Source of the DNA: Paramacrobiotus metropolitanus | Taxonomy: Eukaryota; Tardigrada; Eutardigrada; Parachela; Macrobiotidae | Direction of reading: 5' to 3' | Length of the DNA stretch: 64,000 nt | NCBI RefSeq assembly: GCF_019649055.1 | Contig: NW_026570295.1 | Coordinates: 248,001 to 312,000, forward strand | Shown here: one piece after another, positions 2,556 to 29,300 of the stretch | Layout: every line of letters starts with the position of its first letter | Numbering within the stretch: position 1 is the first letter of the stretch | Program-made: the position numbers and the translations under genes | The notes under the pieces: model-generated | Database searches by the model: none | What the model was told of the DNA's origin: nothing | What the model saw: the letters and a program-made list of their open reading frames with translations, nothing else

Positions 2556-5500
2556 TTAAAAGACGATCGAAATTTTGCGTACATTGTACGCGCGGAATTT
2601 GGCACGCCCGCGATAGAGGAATTCCCCAATAGCCACTATTAAGGATATCAGCAGTCCACCGGCTAAGATTATAAATAAGCCGGTCAAATCCATCGGGCTC
2701 AGTGAACTCAGATCACTGGAATCCTACATACACGGATAACGCTGGAGTTACTTAACGTATTACACAGGAAGTACCTTTGGTTGAAATCATATTCATACCG
2801 CTTTACTGTCCTTCTCCCTTTGAGCGCGACATTCATCTGCAAGCAAAATAAATTTCCGTTAATTTTGCAATCATTTCAATAGTGCGTACCGGTGCTAGCT
2901 TAATGTTATACAAACTGGCTATCAAATAAAAGGTCACTTTTGGCGGGATTACGGTTGGCGCCCCAAAGCTGTAGTAATGTGGTTTTTGTTCCCTGTCTAA
3001 ACAATTTCAAATCGTACCGTTCATTTCGCGGGAAAACCACCGGGTCTCCAGCATTTTGAGAATCCCATTCTCGTTTAAGCGCAGCAGCGATTCTGAGAAG
3101 ATCTTGCGGTAAATGGAGTCTCGCGCCACGGCAATGGCGTAATTATCGTAGAATAACGGTAGTCCCAGTGTCATGGTATCGCAGGGTTTGCCGCTGTTGA
3201 CAAAATCCACATAGCTGCGCGGCGCAATGTAAGCGTAGCCCCCCTGGCGCACCCGCTCCGTCCCGTTCTTCTGGTCCCCGGTGATCCAGTCGGGATGCGA
3301 CAGCATGTTGCTATACATGGTCTGGTAGACTTTCTGTTTGGACACATTGAAGAAATGCGCCGAGGCCACGTTGAGGATATCGTAGCCATACTCCACTTTG
3401 GTGGGATCCTGATAGGCCAGGTCGTCGATGGTCTGGATGGGCGAGGTCATGCGATTGACCGTGAGGAAAGCCGCTGTATACCAACATTCGGTTAGGCTTT
3501 TAGATGAGCGGTATTAATGTACATACACAGGTATAGAATTCACCTAGATTGGCGGTGTAGGTCGCCACCACGATCATGGACCAGGCAAACCAGGCAGCAA
3601 CCGCGATTTTCGTCGCAACGGCTCTAGACAGCAAACACAGCATTATAGAGACGGTTTCTTCCATGCAGGTGGTGTGCAGTACCTTGGCTCAATGTTGGGT
3701 CCTTGTTGCAGAAGCGTCGCAATTGTAAACCACTACAAATCGTTTCATCTGACATTTCAAATAACACAGCGTTTTTGTATCAAAGTCTCCCTAAACCGTA
3801 AAATTTTATCCAGTAGCAGAGAAATAGAAAATCAAGGCACTTCTTCTTTTATTTATCTGTACATTAGCTAATAGCGTACCGTGGAAGCTTTCACTGGCTC
3901 ACAGAATTGTATTATTTTCAAAGTATAGGTTGTGTGTTTTATTACTTAATAAATTTGAGTATCTGCATTTACTGTACGTACCAGTGATTCTTCGGCTGTG
4001 TACTCGTTGACCAGGCCATTGGTCGCGCGGGGATCGCAGCGATTGGACAGATGCCATTCTGACGGCGCAATGCGCCCAACAATAAAGATGATCAGGAAGG
4101 TGATCATCAGGGCCAGTCCAATGGACAGCCACAGAGTCCAGGAGAACGGATCCAGAAAGCTGAACATGCGCACCTGCCGGCCGGTAACCGTCTTCATCAT
4201 AACCACGTAGGCATCGTTCATAAAGGGAATGGTAAAGTCCACCACGGCTTCCCGCTCGGAGATTATGCTCAGATCGCCAATGGTCATATCGGCTGTCTGT
4301 GATACAAAGACACGGTTTAACGCTCACCAGTGGTACTTGACATTTTTACATACACCGTGTATTATTTCAGCAACACCACCGATCCATGTCCCATTATCCA
4401 GTTTCCTCCCGTACTCATTGTCCTTGGACATGTGGAAGACAAAGTTATAGTCGTAAAATTTCTTGAGATCCTTCTCTAAATAGTCCAGCAGATCCACACT
4501 ATATCCTTCATAGCACAATCCGGTGACATTTCTTCCGATCACCGCCTGCACCGCGTCCGGGTCCTTGATGGGTCTTTGTGTAACGGTCGAGTGGTTGCAG
4601 GGAGCCACGTTGAGGAACTGATCCATCTGTGGTCAAGCAGCGGCTGTATTTAAACCTGTCTGTGTATGCTGGTCAGTTTGAACTGGATTACATAGAATCC
4701 GACAACACGTATGGTACTGTTCTTTTCATCTGCTTTCTTGTTTTTGGTTATGTGCAATCCGAAGGTGTCGTTCCACGTACCAATCTGGATAAATAAACTG
4801 TTATAATAAAGATCCACGAGAAAAAGATATTGCATTTATTACCTGGGACATTTCGCCGCCGTTCAGCATCTCGACAATATTCAGCTCGTATTCCTTGCGG
4901 TAGCCGCCCTCGTCGAACTCCGTCGGACCCGTTAATTTGTCCACCGACGTCTAAGAAATGTTCCGCAGTCAGATATGTACAAAGGCATTTAAGGGAAGTG
5001 GCCCGGTACATGGTACCAAATTTGTGTACATGCACGAAAACTTCCACTTTCGCGCACTCCCAAACACATTTTTGTTTCGGTTTATGCCGTTTTGTAGCCA
5101 GAAGATTTGTAAACACTGGCGTGAAAACCGTTTGTGCGCGCAACATCCGGTTCGGGAATTAAGGCTGCTAGAACATTCCAAAAAGCTTACATGCGTTCAG
5201 GTGTACCAAAAGTCTCATTATGGACCGATCTCCCTCAAATTTTGCACGTAAATGCACATAGCCATGAAGATCGTTTTTATACCGATCCAGACTTCCATGA
5301 TTTTTTTCCAATTTTAAAATGAATTTTAAAATTTTTGAAATTCATTTTAAAATTGGAAAAACATGCTAGAACAGTGGATCGGTGTAAAAACGTTCTTCGT
5401 GGTTATGTGCATTTACGCGCAAAATTTGAGCTATAATGAGACTTTTGGTCACCAGAACGCATTTAAACTTTCTGGAATTTTCTAACAGCCATAACTCCCG

Positions 5501-7759
5501 AACCGGATGTTGCGCGCACAAACGGTTTTCACACCAGTGTATAAAAATCTTCTGGCTACAGAATGTCATAAACCGAAATAAAAAAGTGTTTGGAAGTGCG
5601 CGAAAGTAAAAGTTTTCGTGCATGTACACGAATATGGTAGCATGTACCGGGCCACTCCCCTTAACTACTGATAGCGATGGACGAAAATGTGATAATGCAC
5701 AATTCTGGTGTATTTGTTCCTTCTAAGATTTGCGGATTGCCGTATATGATTTCTAGTGTCTTGCCGTGTATGATTTCTAGTATTTCTAGTGTCTTTCTAG
5801 TGTAAAACCTGTGGCTAATGCCTTCATTACTTCACAAGATAAGTCAGTGGCGTGCAAGTCGCAAGCACCCGACCAGCAACAGTAATTACCGTACCTGACG
5901 CAGTGTTTTGAGCATTTGCTCTCCATCGTACCAGGTGTTGTACGGCAGTGCTGTGCAGTCCAGTGACTGTACGGATGGCGGATCATTAGCGACCTGTTGG
6001 ACTGCCGCATGTGCCAGATCGATGGAATCCATGGCCAATGCCAGGAGAGTCTGTTAAAATTGTCCACGTATTTCTCTTAACGTTATATATTCGTGCTGTA
6101 AAAGTCTCCAATATTTTGCAGCTGGAATGTAACTGGAAGCGTGCCACAGTACCGTCATTGTTTTTCCGTCACCTTGGCTGGTTTTGTTATACTGGATGTC
6201 TTTCTTGTCGATTAAGGTCAAACAGGTCAGACTGTTGGATGTGTACTGCAGGATGCCGAAGTTGCTGTTCTCAAAGTCCTTTATTGCAAAAAACAACAGA
6301 AAACTGGGTAATGCCGATAATCTGTTTGCGTAGCACGCCTAATTGTTTAATCGTCTACTTGGCACTGTTAGCGTTCTTTCTGGAAAGTTTTTTTATAAAA
6401 GTTTTTTTATAACTTGTAATTTTTATAAGATTTGTACAGTACAGTACATACTGTACATAGCTGTATACAGTACATAGTTGGACAAAAATGAGAGAAAAAG
6501 TTGAAAGTGATTCGTACCAGAGCAGCCAGGATAAAGTGGAATTTCCGTTGCCGGACCGTATCACTGCTTAGCAAGCTGCGCATGATCTCACTGGCCTGCG
6601 ACGACGGAGTGTCAAGTATAATGCGCCATTCTTTTATACCTTCCAGCAGAATAGAATTGAGCAGATAATTAACGGTCCATTCGGAGGAGTGCGCTAGGTA
6701 AAAGGACAAATAAAAATTGTCCAGGGCACCGGTCTGGGTGTGCGCATAGTATAGACTCAACGCCTGATCCAGTTCTGCAGAAACAGCGTAAAACACGCTC
6801 AACGACCACAACCAGAATTTAAATATCTCTAGTAATTGTAACAGGGATTACTCTTATTGGAGTCGGTGACATAGAGCGCATATTCCCATTTGTACACCTT
6901 GGTAGCGAGATCGATGACGGCGCGCATCGTGGGCGGGCGCATATTGAGCTGGAAAGAAGGGGCCGGTGCCGGCTTGACTAGGTCGTCGGAATCCAGGAAG
7001 ACGGGCCGGTAGAAGGACGACATCATGACCAGAGGGACATGCATGGCCTGGCTGTACCATTGCAGTTGCGCCGCCACGTCTGGGTTCGTGAGGGCCACCA
7101 TGATCCACGTCCCGTTGCGCAGGGCGCTGCAGACTGTTCACAAACAAATAGTCAATACAGGAAAAAAATTATACAACGCATACACATTTTGTTGGTAAAA
7201 TTGTGTTAATATTTTCATAAATAATTAAAAAAATTTTTATAAAAAAATATTACTAAAGGAAAATTGCACATGCGATGGTTTCGTTCAGGCAACGAACGCC
7301 GAACGGCATCCTGTTTTGTTTTCTTAATAGCTGCAACGACGCGGTTTACAATTAATATGGATGTTAGAATATTGTGGTATAGGGTCTTAAAAGACTATGT
7401 AAAATTTTGCTGAACTGAAAATTAATATGTTGACATACTTTGATTAGCATTGTAGAATTGGTCTTTCTCCGACAGGTTCACAAACGAAATATTCTCATCG
7501 ACAAGTGTCCCGTTGTAAGCCAGCTGACTTAATACCACCGGCGCTTCAATGACATCATCCCCCACGAAGAGAGCTGCAGCAGCCAAATATTTTAAGCAGA
7601 CAGATAGTACATATTGACACCCGAATTTCATACACGAAATGCAAAGGGTTCAACTAAATGTTCGAGAGAGTACGTACCAATACGGGGTACACTCAACGCG
7701 GAAGGAAAAATAATGATAGCGCACAGCCAAAGATAATTAATCCAGGGATTCGGCTTCAT
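2556..7759 (-). CDS. ionotropic glutamate receptor, copy A
   Basis: This is a ligand-gated cation channel subunit of 872 residues in 15 exons: complement(join(2556..2723, 2799..2836, 3018..3473, 3544..3623, 3683..3732, 3982..4296, 4354..4626, 4692..4784, 4843..4950, 5895..6050, 6153..6278, 6518..6774, 6852..7133, 7439..7573, 7678..7759)). All phases close. Order: signal peptide (1-27), ATD (to about 406), S1 (407-540), M1 (about 549-572), pore loop (603-615), M3 with TYTANLAAFLTV (about 638-651), S2 (655-800), M4 (about 828-850). S1 keeps the ligand arginine (R512, SEREAVVDF). The S2 acidic position is proline (P730, APRS before PCDT). The pore reads LLQQGPNIEPR, with glutamine (Q611) at the Q/R/N site. 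Unlike B-E, it has a 59-nt intron (3624-3682) inside the pore coding exon. It may assemble with its neighbours; that is inferred. Confidence 0.92.
3624..3682 (-). other. copy-specific 59-nt intron in the pore exon of iGluR A
   Basis: Copies B-E encode pore loop and M3 in one uninterrupted 130-nt exon. In A the same coding sequence is split into 50 and 80 nt by a segment starting GTACTGCACACC and ending TTTGCTGTCTAG. Reading through it hits a stop; removing it restores an EPR-AVATK junction that aligns with EPRSVATK in the others. Confidence 0.85.
4988..5664. mobile_element. 677-bp palindromic TTAA-flanked MITE
   Basis: The element lies in an intron of iGluR A (between exons 4843-4950 and 5895-6050). 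It is one giant imperfect palindrome: the left arm (4988 to about 5330) reappears in reverse complement to 5664 with high identity. The arms meet at an AT-rich core around 5310-5355. The ends read TTAAGGGAAGTGGCCCGGTA and its near-complement ending CCCCTTAA. The bounding TTAA suggests piggyBac-type target duplication, with TTAA as the site. No transposase is encoded, so it would be non-autonomous. A diverged relative is at 52401-52877. Confidence 0.85.
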
Positions 7760-9275: not shown

Positions 9276-9281
9276 TTTATT
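9276..9281 (-). promoter_or_regulatory. possible poly(A) signal of iGluR B
   Basis: A minus-strand AATAAA lies 243 nt past the gene B stop codon. Position and match are the only evidence. Confidence 0.35.
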
Positions 9282-9523: not shown

Positions 9524-12500
9524 TCACGTCATATTTACGTAGATGGTGTAGTTATACATAGTGTGATTACGTACACCATGATGACGAAACTCCTGACGTC
9601 CTTTGCACAGGTATTCACAAAAAGCCACAACCAGAGCAAGCCCTAAGCCGGCAGCCAGAACAATAAATAAACCGGTCATTTCGTGCGGATTCAGCTTGCT
9701 CAGCTCATCGGGATTCTAAAAAAACCAGCGTTAACATACAGATGAAGTTCCATTGCTTATACAATAAATACGGAAAATAGCAATCAATATTCATGAGGTT
9801 CTCGGACTACTGGAATAAATCTCTACGGTGTCCCCGATAATTTTGTCTCCAGTTTTACCGCTTGATGATCTTGGTCTTCATCCTCGTCTCGACATTCATC
9901 TGCAAAATACTTTGAATACGTAACCAGTAGGTTTTCACAGGGTATGTCATCGTACTCGTAGTCCGGCCAAACCACGTGCTTTCCAGCTGTTTCATCACGC
10001 CGTGTTCTTTTAGCCGTACAACGGCCTCGGAGAACTCTTTGCGCAACGGCGACCCCGTCGACATTGCCAGGGCGTAGCTGGAGGTGAACAACGGAAGTCC
10101 CAACAATCGGGTATCACATGGTCGTCCGTTGTTGATATATCCGACCATGGTCTTTGGTCCAATGATGGCGAAACTGCCCTGGCGCACCTTTGCCATCACA
10201 GAATCAAAATCTTCGAAAATCGTACCATATTCGACCATGGCGATCTGCATTCGCTGGTAAAGGTTCTCTTGTGTGTGTTGGAAAAAATTGCTGGCTGCGT
10301 AGTCCATCTTCATATATCCATACTGGACGGTGTCGCTGTTAGACAGGTCGTCCGCGGTTTGAATTGAGGATTTCATTCGGTCGATGGTCAGAAAAGCGGC
10401 TACAGTAAGGATAGCAGTTAAGCTTCGCAAATCACACACATATGTTTCAGGAATTGTTATTTCTCGGGTATCTGCGTGAAGATTTTTTGCGTGAACAATA
10501 TCGTCAAAAGTAAAAAAGATTATTGTTTAGAAAAACTGTGGTAGCTAATGTGTTTTCAAGAGAATTTCAGTTTTTTACTCACTAACCCAGCTTTGCCGTG
10601 TAGGTTTGGCTGACGATGAGAACCCAGATAAACCATGATCCGACAGCAATCTTGGTGGCTACGGAGCGCGGTTCGATGTTGGGTCCTTGTTGCAACAAAG
10701 TAGCTATGGTGAACCACTACAACCAAGGCAAAACTGTTACAGTACTCAGAACTGCAGCACGTTGAATTTCGCAAGAAAATAGCAGGCAGCGACGTGCCCA
10801 AGCGTAAATATTATAATTCTGGTTTACCAGTGATTCCTCCACAGTGTAATCATTGAAAATCCCGTCATCGTTTTCGGGATCGCAAGGTTCTGTCAGGTGC
10901 CACTCGGACGGTCCAATGCGTCCCCCAAAAAAGATGACCACGAAAGTTCCCACAATAGCCAGCAGGATTGCTAGCCATAAGGTTAAAGAAAACGGTCGCA
11001 GGAAACTGAATATACCCAGGTCGATCGTTTCTTCTTTTCTAATCAGAATATAATAATCGTCGTTCATGAACGGAAGCGTAAAATCGACGACCTGCTCACG
11101 ATCGGACGTCGTACTCAAATCAGCAACGATCATGTCAGCTTCCTGCAATAAAAAGGTCATTGTTGCAATAAAGTAGCTCAATATAATTGTTCAGCCTTAG
11201 ATTTTCCGGGACTATGAGCTTGAGAATCGCAATATTACATCAGCAGCTGCTATATCTTGTTGATAAAATGCACACCTTACGCAAAACTTCTCCAATTGCT
11301 CCGGTCCACCTGCCGTCCACCTTGTTCCCGTACGGTAGCTTGCCCGAATTATGGTGTAAAGTGAAGGTGTAGTTTGTCAACGCTGTCAGCTGCAGGATTA
11401 AATCCACCACGAAACCGGCGTAACACTCGCTGTCATCTGTGGTAACTTCTTTCCGCACAACATGGCGATATGTTGTGGTGTCGCATGGTACAACCATTAG
11501 AAACCTCTCCGCCTAATGGAAACATCATAAATCGCACATGCTGTTTAATTATCAAAGATTCTTCTACTATTTCACGTAAGATGCTTACAAGTATCCCGAC
11601 AATTCGTAAAGTTCGCTTGAGCGTTGTGTTTGGTAGCGGTAAAAAGTGTAATCTGTCTATATCGCTCCATGTTCCCCTCTAAAATGGCTTGAAGCAGGTA
11701 AACACTTTTTTGTGTCGCATATCCCTATGGGTTTCAAACAGTTAAGCAATCTTTTATGTACATTTATGAAAGGCGCTCCAAATCGCATCTGCAGTATATT
11801 CAGTTTGTAGTTTCTTCTGTTGCCAAGTTTGTCAAATTCCAGCTTCCCAGTCAGTCCAGTGTAGTGTGTCTGCACGAGTATTCGGTGAATTGAAATTGGT
11901 TAAAAGGAAAACGCTAAAGTACCCACATTCAGTAGTAGCTGATGAACACGGCTTCCTTCCGCCCAAACGTTGTACGGCATAGCGCGGCAATCCAGTGATT
12001 TTGTGTTAATGGAACTGTTTCTCAACGCTGACATGACGAAACCAATGGCGTCGTAGGCTAGCGCGTCGGCAGTCTAGAAAATACCACGCTAACTTATTGC
12101 GACGATGGCATTACGGCAAACTTCCACTTACCGTAACTACATGTCTGTGTGCGCTGGAAGTTTGATCTTTTTCCATCATCGACAGTACCGTTAGACTGCT
12201 GACAGAAGAGTGAATAATTCGAAAATCTGCCCCTTCAGTATCCTGACAATGAAAGGTAAAAATGTATACAGTACAAAAAAACTGGTTAGGCGATGTGATC
12301 CTCTTACCAGTGCTGTTAAGACGAAATGGAAATGCCGTTCTCGAACGGCTCCGTTACGTAGTATAGCAGTAATCAAAGCTATTGACATATTAGTCGGTAG
12401 ATCAAGAATCATCCGCCATTCCTTGATCGGTCTCCGAAGGATCGTGGTGGTAATGTATTCTGTCGCACTGACCAGTGACCCGCCTTGGAAGAACATTCCG

Positions 12501-13308
12501 TATAGTTTGTTGGGGATGCTGCGCAGTTGGGCTTGACGGTTGTACGCTTCCCAGGCTTGAACGCTCTCTTATGACAGAAAACATGTCTTCTGTATTTAGG
12601 TTTTGATTCTACTTATTAGGACTGAAAAGCCTTCTACGTGCTTTAGCATTCGGTTTGCGCAGAAGTACAGAATTCAGGCGGAAATGAGTGAGTCACTAAC
12701 TGGTATTGGAATCCGTAATGTAAAATGCCTCTGTCCAACTGTAGCCTTGCGTAATGACATCCAAGACAGCGTGAATCGTTGATGGTCGGACATTGAAATG
12801 GTACGGCCCAATCGGTTCATCGGAGAAGCCCAGCGGATCGTACGACGAGCGAATCACCACGGGAATGTGCAGCGCACGACTGTACCAGCCCAGCTGATTG
12901 GAGCTCTCCGTGTCCGCCAAACCAATCAGCGCCAACGTCCCGTTTCTTAAGGCTCTACACACTGATCAGCACTCGCATTGAGACCATTCCATCTTTTCGA
13001 TTCTTCTACGACGAGGAAGTTAGGATATTTTACGCACCCGTGTTTGCATTATAGAAAGCGTCCTTAGCCGAGAAGAGACTAGTATCCACAGGTAAACCGC
13101 TTTGTAGAACTTTACTGATTTCCTGCACGTCGGCCGCTACACCAGCCAGATCATTCTTTTCGGCGAAAACGTCTGCAAATGATTATTATGAGAATCAAGA
13201 CACAATTTTTACGTATCCATCGGATTACGTACTGATGCGCTGTCCGTAACCGTGATGCCGAAATAAGGACCACCAGAGAGCGCAGATGGTAAACGACCAG
13301 GAAAGCAT
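9524..13308 (-). CDS. ionotropic glutamate receptor, copy B
   Basis: This is the second array member: 848 residues, 14 exons, the most compact copy. Exons: complement(join(9524..9715, 9859..9899, 9956..10399, 10587..10716, 10828..11142, 11276..11512, 11589..11678, 11762..11869, 11927..12073, 12132..12242, 12308..12567, 12701..12961, 13038..13172, 13233..13308)). The start is MLSWSFTICALWWSLF, a signal peptide. The ATD runs to about 396. S1 is 397-510 with the ligand arginine R490 (TTSDREQVVDF). M1 follows IFSFLRPFS. The pore is WFTIATLLQQGPNIEPR (Q589 at the Q/R/N site) and M3 is TYTAKLAAFLTI, where lysine replaces the usual asparagine. S2 carries IIGPKTMVGY before PCDT, so the amino-group acid is replaced by proline. 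M4 is followed by a tail of about 35 residues, longer than in C or D. Nothing is broken. Confidence 0.92.
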
Positions 13309-14097
13309 GACTAGCAGCTTTTCTAGCAGTGTTACCAGGAATGCATTTGTGCTGTTTTGAGTCTTTTGACAGCTAGTGCCGTATAAAGTATTCCTTACAC
13401 ACGTGTACAAAACTACTACTTGAATGAAAATCCTAACAATACGTTGGTGTAGCGTAATCATTAATGCCAAATTTTTAGGCTTTTGATAATTCTGCTCTGT
13501 GCCTAAGGGCGACCGCCATGCAGTACTGTACTTTCAGTATGCGAAATCTTACCACCTTAAAAGTTACACATAGGCTGGTACATTAAGTAAGACTACTTTG
13601 AGAAATTTACGATGGCTTTACTGATTTATTTGCTCTGTAATCGGTTGGATCGCCCTCAGCTACTGTTGTCCACGATAATCGATTCTGTGGTCTGTGCACA
13701 TCCATCGTTATAATTAATGGTAAAAGGATTCTCAATACATTCGACTGCGGTATAAGCGAGTTCGACAACCGACGGATTTATTTGATTTCTTAGTTGCATA
13801 ACCACTGAATTTTGCATGCTTCCAGAGCGTAGCATTTTCAGCACTGCTGAATGAAAAGAAAGCAGCGGAATTACAGGCGAATTTGTTCAATAACACGTTT
13901 ATCACAGTAATGAGCTATGTATGTTGGGGCGTTAATCTGGTCTAAGAACCGGCATCTCCATGGAAGTAGCGTCAGACGGTCGTTGGCGAGTCGTTCGGCG
14001 CAAAATAGTTTTACGTAGTTCTTCACTCGTTCCGGTTCTTCTTTCCGTGAGCAATACAGTCTGCATGGATATCTGCAAACCGGCAAATTACTAAACG
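13309..14097. other. spacer between iGluR C and iGluR B
   Basis: This 789-bp stretch holds the 5' flank of gene B and 3' flank of gene C. No gene, RNA or clear repeat was seen. A frame at 13871-14287 overlaps the last exon of gene C out of frame and is treated as a shadow. Confidence 0.6.
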
Positions 14098-17000
14098 TTA
14101 GGGAGTACCCAACGCTATCATTATTGTACGCACTTTGTAGGCTCTGAATTTCTTGTGGCAGCAGAGGTTTTGACAAATCGCAAAAACTAACGCGATAGCC
14201 AATCCGCCGGCTAGGATGATAAATAATCCCGTTAGCTGGCGCGGTGTTAAACGGTTCAACTCTTTGGCCTCCTAAACATTTGTGCAAAACGTACAGGAAT
14301 TGCTAACAACAACTGAGGCTCCAGATAAACATTACGAAAAAAAACTGTATTGATCTATCATGAGTAGTTATGTCTCCTTACTTTTTCCTCTTCCCTGTTT
14401 ATGGCTTTACAGTCTTCTGCTAAAAGAAAGCAATCAATATTGTTCGAGCATAGTAAGAGGATGGATCCATAGCACGAATTCTAATTACTAACGCTGGCTA
14501 AACCATGTAGCCTCAATTTCTCTCAATATGCCATTTTCATTCAGCTTAAGAATAGCCTCCGAGAACTTTTTCCGAAGCGGGGACCCCGAGCGCACCGCAA
14601 TAGCGTAGTCGGTGGCGAACAGCGGCAGTCCCACAATACGCGTATCGCAGGGCGGTCCACTGTTCGCGTAGTCGATCACCGTCTTTTGTGAGATGAACGC
14701 AAAATTTCCCTCTCGCACTTTGGTCACACCTTCCTGGACGTTTTTCACCGCGGTGTTGTACTGGATCATGAAGATCCGCATGCGTATGTAGGTATCTACA
14801 TCGCTGTTGGCAAAGAAATTAGCGGCCGCATGGTCACCGGTCAGTGTTCCATAGCGGATGTCGGTCTGGATGGCCAGATCGCGGATCGACTGGATGGGAG
14901 AGGTTAGACGATTGATGGTTAGAAACGCGGCTGCAACGATATGGTTTTTTTTGACTTCTATGTGGCGCTGTTTTCTCGATAGCAACACGGCATCCGTTAA
15001 TATTCCACAAGGTTCGGTTTCGTAAAATCAATATTAACGAATAGCTTAAATGCGTAATCGCTCACCATAAGTCCCGTTAATATCCTGGTCTCCTTGAAAC
15101 TTTTTTTTAAAAGGCATGGTTTTTCAGTAAAACCGATTATGGAAACGAATCTTCACGAAAATTAGTATTCACGTTTTCAATTTTAAAACACATTTACAAC
15201 ACGAGTCGCACACATTTTAAAACTCTTTTTTAACTTCAGTAAAAGGCTGTGCAAAATGGTCCTAGTATTATGGTAATAGGCAATTGATACCGATGCTATG
15301 TACCGGACCATTTCACTTAACAAATCCAAATGCGTTGTACATGTATACGGTAATTATCGTCAACCTACCCAGGTTAGCGGTGTATGTTTGGCTGATAATC
15401 AGTACCCAAACAAACCACGCGGCAACGGCAATTTTCGTCGCCATCGACCGGGGTCCGATGTTGGGGCCTTGTTGCAGCAACGTAGCAAGAGTAAACCACT
15501 ACAAAAATAAACATATACGGCGGACGATCATAAAGCAGCTGTTGCACCTATTTTGTACCAAAGACTCCTCGGACGTAAACTCATTGGTGACACCCTCCGC
15601 CTCATCGGGATCGGGATGCTCGGCATGATGCCACTCCGAGGGCCCGATGCGGCCGACGAAGAAAATGACCACATACGTGCCCAGGATCGCCAAGATAATG
15701 GCCAGCCACAAATTCCTCGAGAAAGGCAATAAAAAGCTGAAAATATCCTGCGGCTCCTGTTGTTCTTTCTTCATTAGCACTAAGTAGTCATCGTGTAAGA
15801 AAGGGATGGTGAAATCCACAACGGCCGCCCGATCCGACGTGACACTCAAATCCCCAATGGCCAAATCCGCTTCCTGTGTTACACACTGTCTTTAAGAAAA
15901 CTCCATTTATGCTATTGTAAGGTGCTACAAAATGTGACCTTTCGCAATATTTCCCCAATCGCCCCGGTCCAGGACCCGTTGATCTTGGATCCGTAGTAAC
16001 TTTTCGTCTTGCCAGTATGGAGTTTGAGGGACAGATTCGTTACGGCTCCTAATTCGCGCACAAAATCGGCAATGTATCCCACAAAGCACTCAGCGGGATG
16101 GGAAGGTGTTGGGGTTTTGTTCTCGTACTCGGTCGAGTTACAGGGGACCGTCATAAGAAATCGGGGAGCCTAGTAAAGAAAAAGGCGTTTACTGAATGTC
16201 GCTGCATCTTCAGCAGCGCGAAAAGCATATTAACCGTTATTCCAATAACTCGTAACGGGAGGTTGTCACTTTCGTCTTTGGAGTTTTGAAATTGCGTTCC
16301 ACTAACATCGCTCCAGATTCCTTTCTGTACAGTATAAATTCGATACTTACCCGGTAGTAGTAAAATAATACTAGTGCAGTTCATATAACACTTTATCAGC
16401 TTAACCGTGGGATTTGCGACGATTAAACGTACCTTCACAAATCTCCCGCCCTTGTTCATCTCCATAATGTCGAGTTTGTAATTTTTCCGATTGCCAAATT
16501 TATCGAATTCCAGCTTTCCAGTTAAGCCAGTATACTGATACTGCAATAAACATAAGAACGGAAATTTCGCGAAGTTGTTGACCCATTAGAATTGCCGGTG
16601 TTACATTTTGTAGCAGCTGACGAGTAGCATCTCCATTTTCCCAGACGTCAAACGGTGTGGCAGTGCAGTTGATGGATCGACTCGGCAGAAGGCTGGCATT
16701 GGCTGACAATGCCGTAGCGACAAAGCTGATAGCGTCAAACGCCAGTGCATCTTCTGTCTGCAGAAAGATCCTGTAATTGATCAGGAAACGACGCGGCCAA
16801 AACCGTAAACTTCTACAACACTTCGCTAGAATTATTTTTTTATAACTTTATTATAAAGGCGTTTACCGTGGCGATATTGCTTCCACGGATGGTTTTCTGC
16901 GTCTCCGCGTCTTGTATCATCGACAGTGCTGTCAGATTGTTGTAGGTCGAGTAGAGTGTTTGAAAATTGGCCACTTCGAAGTCCTGATAAACAAAATTAA

Positions 17001-18747
17001 AATTGACAGCATCCTTTGCTTTTTATGGTCATTGGCCCGTGCACTCTTACCAGCGATACAAGAATAAAATGGAAATAGCGTTCGCGCACGGCGATGCTGT
17101 TGAGGAACTCGTTAATTAACCGCACCGACATCTGTGCCGGTAAGTCCAGGATCATATGCCATGGCTGAATGGGCACCCGCAGTACCGTTGATGTTATATA
17201 ATCCACAGCGTGTGCCACGGAATGTATTTGGTAAAATGTGGCATACAACCGACTAGGGTTGCTGTTTGCTTTGGCGTGCTTCACGTATACTTCCCAGGCT
17301 TGATCGCTTTCTGTTGGAAATGCAACGCATCACACCACAGTTGATTACCACCGCTCCTCCTCAAGCTCTGTTTGGCTAAATCTCGAATGAAATTGAGACA
17401 GTTTTAACTGTAATTGCACTCGTGTTCTGGCTACGCGACAAGTCGTCGCGAGACATTTGGTTTTACGGACATTTCGTTTAAGGACAACTCGTTTTCATGG
17501 CAAATAGCCATATGACTATTTGTTGCCATAAACCAGTCGATTATTTTTCCACTCCCCAAAAGTCGCGCTATCAAATGCCGCACAACAAAACGAGTGCAAA
17601 ACGAGTTGTCTCAAAACAAATTAGCGGCTGCGACGAAAAACGTGTGGTTAAATGTCTCACGACGAAATGTCCCGCGACCACTTGGGCTGTCACGCCTGTT
17701 CTACTGCGTAATGAGGGTGCACATGTGAATCCGGAAAAACCGTCCACCGGTTAATAAAAAAAACGTCCGGCGAAAATTTCGCCTTATCTAATGATTTGCA
17801 CTTCTCGATCTTATGAACAGAGCGGAAGTCGATTTCGACCCGGACGGTTTTTCACGAGTTATATTTGTATGGAGACGGTTTTACCGGGCTACATACTGTG
17901 CACACAAATATAAATCCGGCAAAACCGTCCCGGTCGAAATCGACGTTCGTTCAGTTCACAAGATCGTGAAGTGCACAAAATTCAACTGGCAAAATTTACA
18001 CTTGAACGCTTCTTTTTAACTGCCAGACGATTTTTCCCGCATGTAAGCAAAAGCGTCCCAGTGGTTTTGCCGGTTACGTTAAATTACGAACTTGTATTGG
18101 TGTCAGTAATGTAGAACGCTTCCGTCCAGTTGTATCCGTGCGAGATAATATCCAGAACAGCAAAGATTGTCTGCGGGTGAATGTCGAAATGATACGATCC
18201 GTGGGGGGGATCGGCGAGGGTGTCGGCATAACTGATCTGCGTATGCGACGAGCGAATGACAGAGGGGATGTGCAGAGCTCGACTGTACCAGCGCAGCTGA
18301 TTGGAGCTCTCCGCATCAGCCAATCCAATTAGCGCCAATGTCCCGTTTCGAAAGGCTTTACAAACTACGACAGATTCTGTTAAGCTGACTGTCAACCGCG
18401 ATGTGTAACGGTATTTCTCGTGAAATAGCAGAACTTGATATCTAGCTGTAAAACCGTGCAGTCTCACCAGCGTGGGCATTATAAAAGAGATCACTGTCCG
18501 AAAATGGACTGACATCAATTTGTAAGTCGCTCTTTAGGGTTTTCTGGTGAATCTTTGCCGAGACAGATGCGATTTTCGATACCTGATTTTTTTCGGTGAA
18601 AATACCTACAGGAGAGTTTACAATGGTTTTTACAAATATTATTGCAAAGTCAGTTATCATAGTTCGCTTACTGATGCGCTCTCCATGTCCGTGATTCCAG
18701 CACCAGATTAAGCACAAGCTGAGCGTGATAATACACCGGATGAGCAT
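14098..18747 (-). CDS. ionotropic glutamate receptor, copy C
   Basis: This is the third array member: 845 residues, 14 exons: complement(join(14098..14271, 14382..14416, 14493..14930, 15369..15498, 15559..15873, 15939..16169, 16235..16324, 16433..16540, 16605..16757, 16867..16983, 17051..17310, 18092..18364, 18468..18605, 18672..18747)). The signal peptide is MLIRCIITLSLCLIWCW. The ATD runs to about 405. S1 arginine is R497 (VTSDRAAVVDF). The pore is WFTLATLLQQGPNIGPR (Q596) and M3 is intact as TYTANLAAFLTI. The S2 acidic position is glutamine (FISQKTVIDY before PCDT), where the other copies have proline. Donors GTTAGT (exon ending 14493) and GTTAAT (exon ending 16235) are weak but forced by phase. 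The intron 17311-18091 is swollen by two foldback elements. Confidence 0.9.
15298..15320. mobile_element. fragment resembling the end of the TTAA palindromic MITE
   Basis: The segment starting ATGTACCGGACC and ending CACTTAA matches the right terminus of the 677-bp element (ATGTACCGGGCC to CCCTTAA) with about four differences. No convincing second end was found, so it is a solo relic at best. It is in an intron of iGluR C. Confidence 0.4.
17445..17678. mobile_element. imperfect foldback element 1 in iGluR C intron
   Basis: The left part (from GTCGCGAGACATTT) and right part (ending AAATGTCCCGCGAC) are inverted, imperfect copies. An inner pair, GACAACTCGTTTT and AAAACGAGTTGTC, is also inverted. 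Near the middle sits a smaller palindrome built on ATGGCAAATAG (from 17497). No coding potential. It looks like a decayed non-autonomous transposon. Confidence 0.65.
17725..18077. mobile_element. foldback element 2 in iGluR C intron
   Basis: Two arms of about 72 bp (17797-17868 and 17904-17975) are reverse complements with roughly ten mismatches, separated by a 35-nt loop. Weaker inverted similarity extends outward to GTGAATCCGGAAAAACC at 17725 and GGTTTTGCCGGTTAC at 18063-18077, which look like terminal repeats. It ends only 14 bp from the donor of the neighbouring exon (18092). No transposase. Confidence 0.7.
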
Positions 18748-19380
18748 AACGAACCATCACTATACCGTTTAAATGGCTCAAGTGTTCTCCAGAATATGTA
18801 CTATGATGGCCCAACGCACCGCCAGCGCAAACAACAATGTGCGCATGATTTTTGCTACAATATGTGAACCGACGACTTTAGAAGTGTTTTTCTAGCTCGA
18901 GGGCGAAACGTGCCATTTGCTTCCGTGAACATCAAATACCACGTTATTGTCCATAAATCATATAATCCGTATAACCGCCACATTCATTCTTTTCACTGAG
19001 AGTCTTTAATTTCCAACCCAAAACCATATGATGAAAGTGCACAATTACAGGAATAATAGCGTTTAGATACAATACAACTCCAGTAATTAATTTTGTAAAA
19101 TTTGGACTATGCGCAATGAATCACAGATTTTGCCGGTTCGATGCCGGTACGATGCTACCGCTAGTGCTGCCTCTCGTTGTTTATTCTTCTTCCCTGTGGG
19201 GACGATTGTTGGCGGAACCATTTCGCACTTTGGTTGCGGCTCTCCGTGGACCTTTATAAGTTCCAAATATCCTGGGTCGCTTTCGCGTGAGTAGGACACG
19301 ATCCATCGAAATCTGCAAAAAAGGAAGTCATAATCTCATAATAATCATAATATGCATCCCAGTTAGATTTAAGGAACTTA
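18748..19380. other. spacer between iGluR D and iGluR C
   Basis: This is a 633-bp AT-rich spacer holding the 5' flank of gene C and 3' flank of gene D. Apart from a minus-strand AATAAA at 19180-19185 nothing was recognised. Confidence 0.6.
19180..19185 (-). promoter_or_regulatory. possible poly(A) signal of iGluR D
   Basis: A minus-strand AATAAA lies about 200 nt beyond the gene D stop codon. Position and match only. Confidence 0.35.
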
Positions 19381-22300
19381 TCATACTCTGTGTTTTCGAA
19401 ATTTTTCTCGACCCCGGTACAAGAATTCAGCAATGGCCACAATCATGGCAATAGTTAGTCCTGCGGAAAGTATGATGAACAGGCCGAACATTTGGTTGGG
19501 ACTAATTTTGCTTAATTCATTGGGATCCTAACAGCAACACATCGTCAATAAAAGCGCTCAGTCGAAGTAAATATTTTATTAAAACACAACTACTCGTAAA
19601 ATTTAAGTACAAGGATGTGGCAACGTCAAATTAAATTTGACCTTACCGCTTGTTCTTTTTGTTCAATGCGACACTGTTCTGCAGCAAAAAATAAGCATGG
19701 TAAAATTTTGCAAACTGCGAGCGTTAGTAAAACTGAAAAGTGAAAAAATTGACTGACTTTGATTAAACCACATTGCTTCCAGTTCCTTCAGTATGCCGTT
19801 GTCATTCAGAGTGAGAATTGCTTCGGTTAAGGTTTTTCTTAGCGGTGCTCCCGAACGCACGGCAATACCGTACAAGGAATTAAACAACGGCAGTCCGATG
19901 ATGCGTGTATCGCAGGGATAACCGTTATTGGCATACTCCAGTACGGTCCGCGGGCCGATGAAAGCGTAACCACCCTGGCGCACCCGCTGCAAACCCTCCG
20001 CAACGGACTTCACCTTACTGTTGTGCTCCTTCATATTGAGGCTCATCCGCTGGAAGACATCCTGTTTGGCGTGTTTGAAGAAGTATTCGGACGCCTGATC
20101 GGCTTCCAGCACGCCGTAGTCAATGTCGATCTGGTTCGCCAGTTCTTCGATGGCCTGGATGGGCGTCTGCATGCGGTCAATGGTGAAGTATGCAGCTACA
20201 ATGTAAAAATGGCGTAGCAATACTGAACTGTACAGAGTATAGTTTTGCTAACAAATTTAAAAGTCCACAACGTTCATCAGATCCACAAACATTTAGTTAT
20301 GATTTTGCTGCTTATTACTCTTGTACGCTATACGGTGTCACAGTTTATGTACTTTGTACAGTACTTCTTTTCCGTCCAATAGCAACACTTCACAATTTAA
20401 GAATATTCCGTATTCGGCGTTATTCGCCACTTATTATTGCTAAATGAGCAACCAAGTAATTCGGCGTTTAAGCGAGGCGCACGCATGTGCAGCTTTAGCG
20501 CAACAACCGCTTTCCTGAGAAGTTCGAGGAAAACGTTTTATCGTGTGATCGAAATCTTTTACGATACAAGTTTTGGGCACGCGGTCCGGGTCTGGCGGTG
20601 CGACGAAATTACGGGTCATAATGCCCTTATTACGGGTCACGTTGAAGCGTTTGTTAAATCACAGGCCCTTATTACGGGTCACGTTGAAGCGTTTGTTAAA
20701 CCACAGTTAACGCTTTATCGCAGGTAACGCTCTAGTTTTCCTCATTTTTTTACTGGCGGATACAGGTTTTAAAACGCGGGTGATTTCCTTCAACAATATA
20801 CCTACCTAATGCAGCAGTGTAGCTTTGGCTGACGATAAGCGCCCAAATAAACCATGATCCAACGGCAATTTTCGTGGCTATGGAACCGGGCTTGATATTG
20901 GGTCCTTGTTGTAACAGCGTGGATAGAGCCAGCCACTACAAAGTGTGGAAGGTAACGATTGCAGTGCTACCGACTGCGTAATTGGCATATGATGGATGAA
21001 GCACGTAAAGCTTACCAATGCTTCTTCCACAGTAAAATCATTCCTTAGCACTTGCGACTGGTCAGGATCGCAGGCATTGATATGATACCACTCCGACGAG
21101 GTGATACGGCCCACAAACACAATGACCACGAATGTCCCCATCAGCGCCAACAGAATCGATAGCCACAACGTTAAAGAAAAGGCCTCCAAAAAACCGAACA
21201 TTCCCTTCTTTTTCTCGCCTTCCTGTTTCATAAGGATGACGTAGTCATCGCTGATAAAGGGAATCGTGAAGTCTACAACTTCAGCACGCTCGGAGAGGAT
21301 GCTTAGGTCGCCCAGCGCGAAATCAGCTTCCTAATAACCAACAAGATTACAACTTGTGACAATGCATGTACATTCGAGATTGTTATGAAGGTCGCTGGAA
21401 CTAATTTTCCTTGGCTATGAACTGCATAAAAACTAAGAAGGAGTAGTGCTCCGAAAAATACGGTTGCAGGTTATGCAGTGCTGCGCTGACCTTTCGCAGC
21501 ACTTCGCCCACAGCCCCAGTCCAAGTGCCGTCAATTTTATTCCCATAGAAATATTTGTCTGTACTGTGGTGCAGCACCATCGAACGGTTGGTTAGGGTTT
21601 TCAGATACTGCAGGAAATCCACAGTGTAGCCGACGTAACATTCATCGGAGCGGTTTGATACCGAACTTAGCCGTTCTTGGTTCCGATACCGCGTCGAATT
21701 GCAGGGGACGATCATTAGAAATCTGTCCGTCTTGTAAACAAACAGCGTACGTAAATAAAATACAACAATATTTTTTGCATTAAGTTTTTCAAAGGGGGTT
21801 TCCCGCACTGGGTTGATCCTTGCCTAGGTGCAATCTTCGCTACGTACATATAGATGCAGTAAACTAACCCAGTGTTGCCATTTTTAAATAATCTTATTAC
21901 ATAAATAACATAATCACTTACAAGCATGCCAACGACCCGTAGTGACCGGCTGTCACTAGTATCTGAACGGTTGAAGAACTGCAAACCATGCGTATCGTTC
22001 CACGTCCCTCTCTGTAAGCAGGAATACTATGCGTAGGCTTCATAGTACCATATTATTCATAGGCTTTATGATGGCAGAGCCAACACAAATAAAAGTTCAG
22101 TTACGCTAAATAAAAGTAACGTAAAGTAGCAACTGGTGACTATTTAAATAATAAGCAGCTATTTCATATAATAAAATGAAATGAATTTCATACATCTATA
22201 AGGCTAAAAAGAAATCGTTTCACGAGATACTCATCAGCCACATCTGCAATACCTGTGTTAGATTTCCTTGTCCATTTCTCATCTCCATAATGGTGAACTC

Positions 22301-24749
22301 GTAGTTTCTTCGATTTCCAGACCGGTCAAACTCGACATTTCCCGTCAGTCCAGAGTATTTAGTCTGTAATGTTGAATATTTTATGCTGAAAATAATGTAG
22401 GAACAAACGCCATCAAAATCTCGTTACCGTACAAGACAAATCGGCATTAACGTGCTTACGCTTTGCAGCCATTGACGAACTAGCTTCCCGTCCGCCCAAG
22501 CGTCGTACGGTCTAGCCCGGCAATCCACGGATTTGGTTGGCATCACAGTGGACTTTTCGGACAGCGCCGCTGTAACAAAGTTAATGGCGTCGGACGCCAG
22601 TGCATCCGCCGTCTGAAATAAGAAAGGCCAGTCCGCCATAAATACTTTCACTCCATCGGCGCAACTTCCGCTCCCGACGTACCGTTTTAATATGGTTATC
22701 CGACATCTTGTTGTCAAACAACTTCGGGACCATCGACAGTGCCGTGACACTGCTGTACGTTGTGCGTAGAACGAGCAAATCGATGGCTTCGAAATCCTTG
22801 CAAAGACGAAATCCGGTATTTATGAGACGATATATGTATGTACTGTATACGAAGCTTCGAAAGCAGTTATAGTTACCAGTGCTGCGAAAACAAAATGAAA
22901 ATGTCGCTCTCGGACGGCGGCATTATTGAGCAGGGACTTTAGTAAATTCATGGCGGATGCCGCCGGCATATCGAAGATAATATGCCAGTCTTTACTGGCC
23001 TCCTTCTTCAGCGTCCGCAAAATCGTCGATGTCATGTACTTCACGGCTTCCGGTATGGACTTCATTTCGAAAAACGTAGGGGAAAAATTGGCCACCAGTT
23101 TGCGTTGTTTCGCGTGTTCCTGGTAGACTTCCCAGGCTTGATCACTTTCTTTGTATAATTATGAAAAAAAACAATTATAAAACGAACAAAAATGTACACG
23201 AGTTTATCATTCTTTATACCATAATAAGCGAGCCGGCGACTAACTAAACTATACAGTAGCCGCTATTATGCCGAATATTCTGGACGGTTCATACTTCATT
23301 AAGTCATGGTACTGTGTGTTTTATGCCAGTCAACCAGCACACTTCTTAAATTCGATATAATAATTATAAATTTGTTTTATATATAAAAACTATATATAAG
23401 TTCGTCGTCAGCTGTAATATTGTTGGTGCAAAAAATTATACATCAGTTGCTAAATTTTTCCCACTAACTGGAGTTGGAATCGGTGATAAAAAAGACTTCG
23501 GTCCAGTTGTGGCCCTGCGTTATAATATCCATCACCGCGCGGATGGTCGAAGGTTGGACGTTGAAGTGGTAGGCTCCGTCGGGTGTTTGGGCCATCGCGT
23601 AGGAATAATTCAGCTGGTCGTACGAAGAGCGCATCATCACCGGCACGTGCAGCGCCCGACTGAACCATCGCAGCTGGGTGGAGCTCTCCGTGTCGGCTAG
23701 ACCAATCAGGGCTAATCTCCCGCTTTTCACAGCCCTACAAACTGTCCTCGGACGGTTATTCAATTGCAGCTGTCACTCGCGCAAGTACACTGTTTTTATG
23801 AACTTTCTCACAGCTGATTCTTTATTTCCCACTTGAAGAACTATACAGGAAAAAATCCGTTTGTGGTAAAAAAAAGGATTTGTCAAAAATTTTCGCGGGA
23901 TTTAGGTAAAAGGCAAAGCAGATCACACTGCCCTACACCGGCTTCATGCGCCTGAAATCCTTTAAATTTATTATCTTCGTAAGATTTGCAAGTAAGCAGA
24001 TCGATTAGACAGCTTTTTTCTCGGGAATACCAGGGCACCCTGGAGAAAGTCATTCATTGTCAGTACGATTAAGCGATACGCGTGTTAAAAACGACGTTTT
24101 GCGCCTCCCAGGCAGGGGAAATTGTGATACAGTGTTAATGCGGGTATGTCAAATTGATTAATATATTCAGAAAGTTACGACTACTGCCGTTAGTTGGTAG
24201 GCATTTCCGGAAGCATAGTTTGTATGCTTTTGAATTTCATAAAAAGCAAATTACAGGTATATAATAAATTTATGAAAATTAGCTTTCACATGTGTACTTA
24301 AATTAACTTATAAGATTCAAAATTAGCATTTATGTAATTATTGTTAATTCTGCTTTCGAGGGCAAGCCTTTGGTTTCACAGCTTTCGACGGAAATTGTGC
24401 GTAGAAAAACACCGTATTAACATACCAGCATTGGCATTGTAAAAGAGATCATTAGGTGAGAAAGGATTTACATCCACAATTAATGTACTCGTCGACGCAT
24501 TCTTCGGCGTCGTCATATTCTCCGGCAAGTATCTTCGAACTGCAGCCAGTTTATCCCTCTCAGCAAAAATACCTGTAATTCACACAAGAATACCGTCATA
24601 TGAATCTGACAGCCAGTTTCCGGGTAAAACAGTCCATTGATCATAAATTTGGATGTATAAACATGTACGTAACTGATTTGCGCTGCCTGTCCATAACTCC
24701 AGAAACAGATTATCCCCAGCGTATAAAAAGTATAAAATGGGATGTACAT
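19381..24749 (-). CDS. ionotropic glutamate receptor, copy D
   Basis: This is the fourth array member: 845 residues, 14 exons: complement(join(19381..19527, 19647..19678, 19758..20195, 20806..20935, 21016..21330, 21491..21730, 21922..22011, 22253..22363, 22460..22612, 22683..22796, 22877..23148, 23469..23741, 24426..24572, 24674..24749)). The signal peptide starts MYIPFYTFYTLG. The ATD runs to about 412. S1 keeps R507 (ILSERAEVVDF). The pore, WLALSTLLQQGPNIKPG, keeps QQG (Q606) but changes the following EPR to KPG. M3 reads SYTAALAAYFTI, so the near-universal gate motif SYTANLAAF is changed at N and F. This is the most diverged gate of the five. The S2 acidic position is proline (FIGPRTVLEY). 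The protein ends eight residues after the YRGREKF stretch that follows M4 (KHRV stop), the shortest tail. Frames are intact, so it is probably functional, perhaps with altered gating. Confidence 0.9.
20623..20706. repeat. 42-bp tandem duplication in iGluR D intron
   Basis: Two adjacent 42-bp copies (20623-20664 and 20665-20706), each beginning GCCCTTATTACGGGTCACGT, differ at a single base. A partial copy (ATTACGGGTCATAATGCCC) precedes them. They lie in the intron between the S2 exon and the pore exon. The near identity implies recent duplication. Confidence 0.85.
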
Positions 24750-26395: not shown

Positions 26396-29300
26396 TTATG
26401 TCGTTTCGAATGTTGACAAAAGTGTATGTAGCCAGACGATATATTCTCTGGGCCAACTGCGTACCCCACGAGCGCGGAACTTCCGGTGCCCTTTGTACAG
26501 ATATTCCGCGATGGCCAGCACCATCGCAATTCCCAGACCGGCCGCCAGAATGATGAACAGACCGGTCAGTTCCAATGGCGTCAGCTTATCCAAATCCTTT
26601 TTTCCCTGTACATAACAGTTTGACACCATTTAAAAATTTTGTGACAGCTACGAATGGCGAAAGTGGAGAGAAGAAGCGTATGAAATCTGTTAAGGTTTGT
26701 AAATTGTACCTGCGAGTCGCCTTCGTCCACAGCCTGGCATGCATCTGAAAATTAATTCTTTAGTATATTAAAAAGTTTCGCTTTTTTTTGATACTGTATC
26801 TTTTGATTTTTTTTTAAACAAGAATGCAGTTGCTGAATTTGCAGTTGCAGTTGCTGAAGGTCTAAAGCGCAAAATAATATCTTACAACAACAGTACAGTA
26901 CTGTATACATAATTTTTGAATTAGAAGCCTTTAGTTTGTAAGGATTGACTGCAGAACGTTAGAAATGTAAACACTGTAAATAAACCGAGCCGAATAGCAA
27001 AACTGAATTAACTGATTATAATTCTTCTATTTAATCACAATTTCTAGTGGCGACAATGGCGACAAGTTTTACCGTTTTGACTACCTCTTGTAAACCACTT
27101 TTTCTCCATGGCATCCAGCGCTCCGTTCTCGTGCAGTCGCGAAATCGCCGCCGACAGTTCCCGGCGCAGCGGTGACCCTCGCCGCACCGCCAGCGCGTAG
27201 TTGGCAAAAAACAACGGCACCCCCACGACCCGCGTATCACAGGGCCTGCCCTGGTTGGCGTAGTCCACCACCGATTTCGGCCCGATGAAGGCAAAGCCGC
27301 CGTTCCGCACTCGCTCCACCCCCTCCGCCACGTCCTCCACGCCGGTGTGATGGTGTTTCATGGCGTTCCACATGCGCTGGTAAATCTCCTGGGTGGAGTG
27401 GGCGAAAAAGGACGCCGACGCCTGATTGGCTTCCAGGACGCCGTAGCGGACGTTGTCCTGGTTGGCCAGATCGCGGACGCTGGTGATGGAGGAGTCCATC
27501 CGGTTCAGGGTCAGGAATGCCGCTGTAAAAATTATTTAAGTATATAATATGATCATTCTTCAAATCATAAAATTATTCGACAAAAAAATAATTGAACATG
27601 GTTCGAAATTCCATTCAGTACAGTATTTTTAAGGCCCGAAACCTTCGCCGGGCAAAATTTTTATCTGTATGCATATACAGAGTGTACATGTAAAACAAAA
27701 ACTGCATAGGTGTACAACATCAAACGATAAAAGTTTTGTTATATTTCCTACATCAAATGCTTGTATATTTAAGCAGAAAAGGAGAAGCACATAGTGGAAC
27801 GATGTTGTACTGATACGGGTATCTTACTTTCGATACAGAAATTAATTTTTGTCTCGGCAACCTCGAATTTTTGGTGAGCAACAAAAAAGTTACTCAAAAT
27901 ACCAGTTGACTACTGTCACGAGTTCTCGAAACGTTTGGTTAACAAGTGTGCATGTACCACTTCCTACTTGTGGCAATCGGAGTGGCAGCCACAACACTAC
28001 AGTCTTATGTGGTAGCATATGCAGATTAATATGTCCATTAGGTAGGTTACGCGTGACACCTCACCCAGTACGATTCGATTCGGCAACTGGTCATGATAAA
28101 TTTATTAACTATCAACTATTCGGTAATCCATCGGGATCGCGCCACACACCCCCGTATACCGTACCCCGGGACTATGTCATTTGGATCACCAATTGTAGGT
28201 AATAATTTTCAATAAAACGTACCGAGGTTGGCCGTGTAGGTCTGGCTGATAATCAACGCCCAGATGAACCACACCCCCACGGCAATTTTGGTAGCTACCG
28301 ACCGGGGCTCAATATTGGGACCTTGCTGGAGCAGTGTCGCCACCGTCAACCACTAAAAATATTGGAACGTTTGATCCACTAATTACACATTAGAGGACAC
28401 CTCTGACGTGACCCTTACCAGGCTTTCTTCCATCGTGTAGTCGTTGGTGATGCCCTCCACCTCATCCGGATCACAGTGCTCCGGACGATGCCATTCCGAC
28501 GGCCCGACCCTCCCCACAAAGAAGATGACGACAAAGGTCCCCAGAATGGCCAGCACAATGGACAGCCACAGGTTGTTGGAGAAGGGCCGGAGGAACCCGA
28601 AGACGTCCACGGCGGTCTCGTTGTCCTTCTTCATCAGGATGATGAACCCGTCGTTCATAAACGGTATCGTGAAGTCCACCACGGCTTCCCGCTCGGCAAT
28701 TACCGTCAGATCACCAAAGACCACATCCGCATCCTACGAACAACTCATGCCATTAGCAATCATTGCTGTACATATTACTGGGTATCGTAGTGAAGTGGCT
28801 ATGAGTGAGCTCGACCATATACATGCCGATATAATCAATACATTTGAGAAACAAACTTGTACATCGTAATAACGAATGTGGTTGTTTTGATTGCTTTTTT
28901 AGGTTTTCATCGAGTAATATCAACCATCGTGACGAGACTGTTGACTGCCATGTCCGCAGTAAACGGTCATCATCAGCAATCAAGGTACGTTCATCATTAC
29001 TATAATCCGCTTATCCCATAAGACCTTGCGTAAAATCTCCCCCACGGCGCCAGTCCACGTCCCGTCCACCTGATTCCCGTAATAAAACTTCCCCGAACTG
29101 TTGTATAATGTGAAGGTGTAGTTCGTTATATTGCTCAGCGCGTCGATAAAATCCACACTGTAGCCGATGTAGCATTCCTCGGTGCCGTTGGCGTTGGGAC
29201 CTTTGGGCATGGTCTTAGCGGACCCCGTCATATTGCATGGCACGATCATCAAAAACCGGTCCGTCTACGCACGACAGGCAGTTCGAGAAGCGCAATTGCT

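Follow-up and report, generated by a model that had tools for sequence, protein, structure and literature searches.

Five tandem AMPA/kainate-like receptor genes in Paramacrobiotus metropolitanus keep the S1 arginine but lack the acidic residue at the GluA2 E705 position

AMPA and kainate receptors hold the alpha-carboxylate of their ligand with arginine 485 (GluA2 numbering) and its amine with an acid at position 705. Loss of the 705 acid is itself known in other invertebrates. A reported precedent is found in newly described iGluR groups, in 28 of 122 receptors, such changes having been read as preventing amino-acid binding (Ramos-Vicente 2018; PMC6307864). The acid is also missing from placozoan AKDF1 and from some GluE1alpha, which are of the epsilon type. 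The Drosophila receptor KaiR1D (CG3822, 5dtb), reported to be activated by glutamate (PMC12226733), combines Asp478, a DFT.PFMN motif and R485, all three shared with the receptors described here, with a retained E705 equivalent and Ser-Thr pair. In GluN2A the glutamate amine is described as being held by the hydroxyls of S511, at the 478 position, and T513, and the role of D731, at the E705 position, is disputed (PMC12199545). Delta receptors, which have GABA or D-serine as ligands, carry Ala at the 654 position and keep the 705 acid (D742 in GluD), the main amine partner according to reported docking (PMC10861852). The acid-sensing insect IRs (IR31a, 64a, 75a-c, 84a) keep the S1 arginine, as reported for Drosophila, where it is thought to bind the carboxylate (PMC12147327). 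DmelIR75d is reported by the same source to keep the arginine and yet not to respond to acids, so the arginine alone is no proof of a carboxylate ligand. IRs are described as lacking some glutamate contacts and, except for IR8a and IR25a, a recognisable ATD (PMC2924276).

The window analysed here is a stretch of 64,000 nt from P. metropolitanus. Spliced alignment and open models place five intact iGluR genes in it, A to E, in tandem and all on the minus strand (Table 1). The open models contain ATD, S1, pore, M3, S2 and M4, i.e., the full iGluR architecture. Copy E, the one copy of the five that was scanned, matched the Pfam families ANF_receptor, Lig_chan-Glu_bd and Lig_chan above cut-off, and copies A–D have exons in common with it. 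Its ATD sets copy E apart from most IRs. The NCBIfam scan of copy E gave weak matches to bacterial amino-acid-binding proteins, far under their cut-offs, and nothing matched in Rfam at the gathering threshold. Candidate signal exons for A and D were found at 7759 and 24749, and the models with a signal exon span ∼2574 to 31954. An earlier note had given the array as 3018–28733, limits that fall in the S2 exon of A and in an S1 exon of E; the whole models reach further. The tiny exons at the S2-M4 junction of A and E (27004–27011 in E) are uncertain, as is the end of D.

Table 1. Positions in the window of the five receptor genes and of three pocket codons in each copy.
Feature	Position	Strand	Remark
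Copy A	2574..7568	-	First ATD exon to M4 exon; spliced alignment, 14 segments
Copy B, incl. signal exon	9566..13314	-	Spliced alignment, 12 segments
Copy C, incl. signal exon	14125..18747	-	Spliced alignment, 12 segments
Copy D	19387..24573	-	Spliced alignment, 13 segments, final one (19146-19154) doubtful
Copy E, incl. signal exon	26456..31954	-	Spliced alignment, 13 segments
A, E705 position	3220..3222	-	Pro codon CCG, then Arg at 706
B, E705 position	10155..10157	-	Pro codon CCA, then Lys at 706
C, E705 position	14686..14688	-	Gln codon CAA, then Lys at 706
D, E705 position	19951..19953	-	Pro codon CCG, then Arg at 706
E, E705 position	27278..27280	-	Pro codon CCG, then Lys at 706
A, P478 position	4273..4275	-	Asp codon; counted from motif position and alignment
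B, P478 position	11119..11121	-	Asp codon; counted from motif position and alignment
C, P478 position	15850..15852	-	Asp codon; counted from motif position and alignment
D, P478 position	21307..21309	-	Asp codon; counted from motif position and alignment
E, P478 position	28710..28712	-	Asp codon; counted from motif position and alignment
A, R485 equivalent	4252..4254	-	
B, R485 equivalent	11098..11100	-	
C, R485 equivalent	15829..15831	-	
D, R485 equivalent	21286..21288	-	
E, R485 equivalent	28689..28691	-	

The five genes are best explained as a tandem array coding for one family of subunits of AMPA/kainate-like (AKDF-type) receptors. The copies have in common with AMPA and kainate receptors (GluA, GluK; AKDF) the order ATD, S1, M1-M3, S2 and M4, a QQG pore and a YTANLAAF-type motif, and the best PDB matches of the core of copy E are GluK2 and GluA1. 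In a small tree of the copies with 7 references and GluN2D as outgroup, without phi, epsilon, invertebrate delta or IR sequences, they group with AMPA/kainate rather than NMDA receptors, as a sister clade to the former (support 91). In the LBD the copies are 26–38% identical to the five AMPA/kainate references, and they differ from these receptors in the replacement of residues 653, 654, 705, 728 and 730 and in having Asn at position +4 from the Q/R site. A literature search, with most subscription papers outside its scope, found no description of this tandem family.

The residue at the E705 position, 12 residues before PCDT, is Pro in A, B, D and E and Gln in C, as had been noticed before from the sequence. 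All seven reference rows have an acid here (Glu in the five AMPA/kainate receptors, Asp in GluD2 and GluN2D). An alignment slip was ruled out, as the stretch to PCDT is free of gaps in three alignments. The idea that the Asp or Glu at 710 is E705 in a shifted place was rejected too: in the five AMPA/kainate references Glu stands at both positions, and copy B has Gly at 710. The published partners of E705 are lost as well, 728 being Phe in all five copies and K730 being replaced by D/S/T/S/A (A–E). The S654-T655 pair is Ala-Ser in A, D and E and Ala-Ala in B and C, in line with the earlier observation, and the alignment places a one-residue insertion directly before it. Residues 653, 654, 705, 728 and 730 are altered in every copy and 655 is Ser or Ala.

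A fold prediction covered S2 (5 sequences; mean pLDDT 68.8 for the best model and 37.6–55.0 for the other four). The modelled P81, between a strand (76–80) and a helix (82–90), lies where we would presumably expect the E705 position. The 50 Foldseek matches listed for this model had TMq values of 0.54–0.60 and rmsd values of 9.9–11.7. The model supports an iGluR S2 fold and nothing beyond it.

The carboxylate side of the pocket is kept. As stated previously, the S1 arginine is present in all five copies; its residue number is 491 in B, 498 in C and 497 in E when counted from their signal exons, one higher than given before. Position 480 is Ser in A–D and Thr in E. The retained R485 argues for a carboxylate ligand. 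Several charges are fixed in all five copies: Asp at 478 and 498 and a basic residue at 706 (R/K/K/R/K), which follows the lost acid. Since the side chain at the 478 position reportedly touches the glutamate amine in GluN2A (PMC12199545), the presence of Asp478 means that the amino site cannot be taken to lack an acid. Whether Asp478 was newly gained as a compensating acid is made less plausible by KaiR1D, which has it together with a 705 acid. R485, D478, A654 and Y732 are invariant across the five copies, and 653 (V/Y/H/Q/Q), 655 (S/A/A/S/S), 704 (A/G/S/G/G) and 708 (Y/M/V/V/V) vary. These variable side-chain-contact positions suggest a different ligand for each paralogue. Position 450 aligns ambiguously in B–E.

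Of 84 sites invariant in the five AMPA/kainate references, 29 are kept and 20 are lost by all five copies, as counted over 219 gap-free columns of the copies and these five rows, with GluD2 and GluN2D left out. Loss in all five copies affects 5 of 9 published contact or closure sites vs 15 of the 75 other sites (p 0.03 in a Fisher test, for non-independent sites and a site set assembled after the alignment had been seen). The nine are those of 13 listed positions that are invariant in the references, which 478, 655, 704 and 708 are not.

We tentatively favour the following reading, giving it slightly less than an even chance. The five copies would be cation channels gated by a ligand, and R485 would hold a carboxylate of that ligand, with the residue at 480 completing a kept clamp. 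The clamshell normally closes when E705 in the lower lobe contacts the amine, and another closure contact would have been substituted for this one. Positions 653, 655, 704 and 708 may tune every paralogue to its own ligand. Judged from a pocket comparison made on sequence, glutamate is an unlikely main agonist. The earlier suggestion that glutamate may not be the ligand is reasonable for the main ligand, given the changes at 705, 653, 654, 728 and 730 and the Ser or Ala at 655. The further suggestion of a carboxylate ligand without an alpha-amino group is supported by R485 as far as the carboxylate goes; its no-amine step is insecure, as Asp478 could hold an amino group and the role of GluN2A D731 is disputed.

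This same uncertainty gives some room to the view, which we consider unlikely but worth keeping, that the ligand of A–E is still an alpha-amino acid, be it glutamate, glycine or a different one, with Asp478 and Ser/Thr480 replacing E705 at the amine. Both residues are found in every copy and would parallel the two GluN2A hydroxyls, and Y732 and R485 are kept. KaiR1D, however, has Asp478 and retains its 705 acid, so Asp478 is no proof of a replacement, and G653, S654 and T655 have changed too. The combination of G/S/T at 653, T655 and Y732 reported as the rule for glutamate or glycine (PMC12226733) is present only as far as Y732 in any of the five. A delta-like GABA receptor is a conceivable reading: the S1 segment of copy E has GluD2 as its best PDB match and Ala at 654 is common to both, but the acid that GluD keeps at 705 is missing in A–E.

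An outcome absent from the earlier interpretation is ligand-free closure of the LBD, which would make the channels constitutively active and let a ligand block them. Placozoan AKDF1, which lacks the 705 acid, is reported to leak and to be blocked by ligands, chiefly glycine (PMC12226733), and the new fixed charges at 478, 498 and 706 could make an interlobe contact. AKDF1 has Tyr at 705 where A–E have Pro or Gln followed by a basic residue, it is likened to them here by its published description, and the charge contact is putative; we regard such a leak as improbable. Equally improbable is a more specific proposal, in which the acid-base network of AMPA receptors (E705-K730-D728) has given way to a new interlobe lock made of Asp478, Asp498 and Arg/Lys706, either bridged by a ligand carboxylate between R485 and 706 or closing without ligand. 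The bridge, if true, would make the array a series of receptors for dicarboxylates or other non-amino-acids within the AMPA/kainate branch. Still a little more doubtful is an accessory or non-chemical role, in which A–E assemble with other subunits or answer a physical cue while the pocket drifts. Copies B and D have an altered gating motif (YTAKLAAF and YTAALAAY, respectively), and 653 and 655 vary, but the four invariant pocket residues speak against this reading. So does dN (0.32–0.48 in the 10 pairs of copies), which is low relative to dS (1.65–2.81 in 5 pairs, with the other 5 saturated) and indicates that coding constraint has been retained.

If the favoured reading of R485-held carboxylate ligands is true, an AMPA/kainate-like family has turned into a varied set of sensors by giving up the amine half of the pocket while the carboxylate half was kept. 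The array would also provide natural variants, five on a single scaffold, with which the residues responsible for clamshell closure and for ligand class could be tested; a published switch experiment used mutants of a single placozoan receptor (PMC12226733). In the same 7-reference tree the five copies form one clade (support 100), so a single inherited event is the simplest account of the missing 705 acid, and five independent losses are rejected as less simple.

We modelled five tandem iGluR genes, named A to E from the lowest to the highest coordinates, by spliced alignment bootstrapped from exons conserved among the copies. All models are open, and every copy encodes ATD, S1, M1–M3, S2 and M4 across 12–14 segments. 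Signal-peptide exons were found in B, C and E, and as candidates only in A and D. Copy E, the one copy of the five scanned against Pfam, lay above cut-off for ANF_receptor, Lig_chan-Glu_bd and Lig_chan. Among the best 60 of 381 distinct PDB sequences (E ≤0.001), those nearest to its combined LBD and channel are GluK2 and GluA1.

Features of the window and their positions
Feature	Position (nt)	Strand	Remark
Tandem iGluR genes A–E	~2.5–32 kb	-	
Pore exons, A–E	e.g. 28223–28352 (E)		
M3 gating-motif exons, B and D	10587–10716 and 20806–20935	-	
S1 exons	e.g. 29025–29264 (E)		
Nested inverted repeats, copy A intron	4989–5664		222 nt arms 88%, 98 nt arms 87% complementary; foldback element-like
Likely major facilitator transporter exons	241–1481	-	both Pfam matches below cut-off
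Spb1/FTSJ3-type rRNA methyltransferase gene	33107–38194	-	Pfam FtsJ and Spb1_C
Receptor-type guanylate cyclase genes (three)	40762–62000	+	N-termini repeat at ~40762, 47795, 55292
Guanylate_cyc Pfam match	52903–53184		one of four pieces scanned
ARAGORN tRNA-SeC call	41935–42026	-	opposite guanylate cyclase reading frame; probably false

Residues are numbered by their GluA2 equivalents. The pocket changes described in the earlier note were borne out by alignment. The S1 arginine claimed for each copy (R485) is present in all five. Position 705, said to have lost its acid, reads P/P/Q/P/P in A–E; E or D occupies it in all seven reference rows (GluA1, GluA3, GluK2, GluK4, KaiR1D, GluD2 and GluN2D), and the alignment from 705 to PCDT is gap-free. 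The S654–T655 pair, given as Ala-Ser or similar, is AS/AA/AA/AS/AS. An AlphaFold2 model of copy E S2 places the proline between strand and helix (block mean pLDDT 85 and 78), and its listed Foldseek matches are iGluR ligand-binding domains; both support the S2 fold, at the level of the fold rather than of residue distances.

The five AMPA/kainate references share 84 invariant LBD sites. All copies keep 29 of these, and all five have replaced another 20, including 498, 653, 654, 703, 705, 706, 728 and 730. In GluA2 simulations, K730 pairs by turns with E705 and with D728 in a salt bridge; during cleft closure the ligand amine touches E705 (PMC5766834). In A–E, 728 is Phe throughout, 730 is D/S/T/S/A, and new charges are fixed at 706 (R or K) and 498 (D). 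All copies have lost 5 of the 9 contact and closure sites, compared with 15 of the 75 remaining invariant sites (Fisher p 0.03). This test is descriptive, as its site list (published contact positions plus 728 and 730, limited to those invariant in the references) was assembled after the data were seen. Ligand side-chain contacts are reported at 653, 655, 704 and 708 (PMC12226733), which vary among the paralogues; 732 is Tyr in all.

Judged by sequence, the carboxylate clamp is retained and the amine and closure network is gone. We tentatively suggest, as a reading close to evenly balanced, that the ligands may be carboxylate-bearing molecules other than glutamate, differing by paralogue and bound with a new closure contact. 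The earlier note's proposal that glutamate may not be the ligand is partly supported; its step to a ligand without an alpha-amino group is weakened by a residue it overlooked, an Asp at the P478 position in all five copies. In GluN2A, the S511 and T513 hydroxyls hold the glutamate amine, and ligand contact by D731 is disputed (PMC12199545). Since S511 aligns with 478, an acid there could hold an amine, and Asp478 could be another acid at the amine site, the kind of residue the earlier note regarded as contrary to its proposal. Drosophila KaiR1D shares Asp478 but, unlike A–E, keeps the E705 equivalent; Asp478 may therefore be old, and its presence does not prove compensation. We consider amino-acid binding through Asp478 rather unlikely.

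A simple carboxylate reading has two points against it: DmelIR75d, an insect ionotropic receptor (IR), keeps the arginine and does not respond to acids (PMC12147327), and Ramos-Vicente 2018 (PMC6307864) takes such changes to prevent amino-acid binding. Placozoan AKDF1, of the AMPA/kainate-type subfamily, and some GluE1alpha receptors resemble A–E in having no 705 acid, and AKDF1 is a leaky channel that ligands block (PMC12226733); LBD closure without ligand, with a comparable leak, seems improbable for A–E, and an accessory or non-chemical role slightly more so.

This kind of change is already known from other receptors. R485 or 705-acid changes are reported in 28 of 122 iGluRs of newly described groups (PMC6307864); the S1 arginine of A–E is also kept in insect IRs that sense acids (PMC12147327), and IRs generally miss some glutamate contacts (PMC2924276). 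In delta receptors the 705 acid is retained, and docking makes it the chief partner of the amine (PMC10861852), a solution different from that of A–E. For Pro/Gln705, basic 706, Phe728, Asp498 and Asp478 combined in an AMPA/kainate-like tandem family, we found no match in the excerpts of the literature searched.

A maximum-likelihood tree (222 LBD columns; the copies and the seven references) united A–E in one clade (support 100) joining AMPA plus kainate (91). Copy A branches outside B–E (81), and the branching of D, B and C is poorly supported (59, 53). With A outside B–E, the simplest reading is that Pro705 (CCA in B) is ancestral and Gln705 (CAA in C) derived, and the loss at 705 would most simply be one event in the five copies. 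Low dN (0.32–0.48 across 10 pairs) against high dS (1.65–2.81 in five pairs, saturated in five) indicates that the copies are old and constrained.

Of the M3 gating motif YTANLAAF, copy B has the form YTAKLAAF and copy D the form YTAALAAY. S1 loop 1 carries two cysteines in all copies (PC, and C before xGY/GF) aligned with the GluN2D loop-1 cysteines; the second is missing from the AMPA/kainate rows and the first falls outside them. In the A–E models, whose junction exons are uncertain, we saw no cysteine shortly after S2, where the PCDT cysteine usually has its partner. All copies keep Q at the Q/R site, with Asn four residues further in place of an AMPA/kainate acid tied to polyamine block (PMC6307864), which predicts weak polyamine block in A–E. 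Elsewhere in the window, the three guanylate cyclase genes stand in tandem and have near-identical ectodomain starts.
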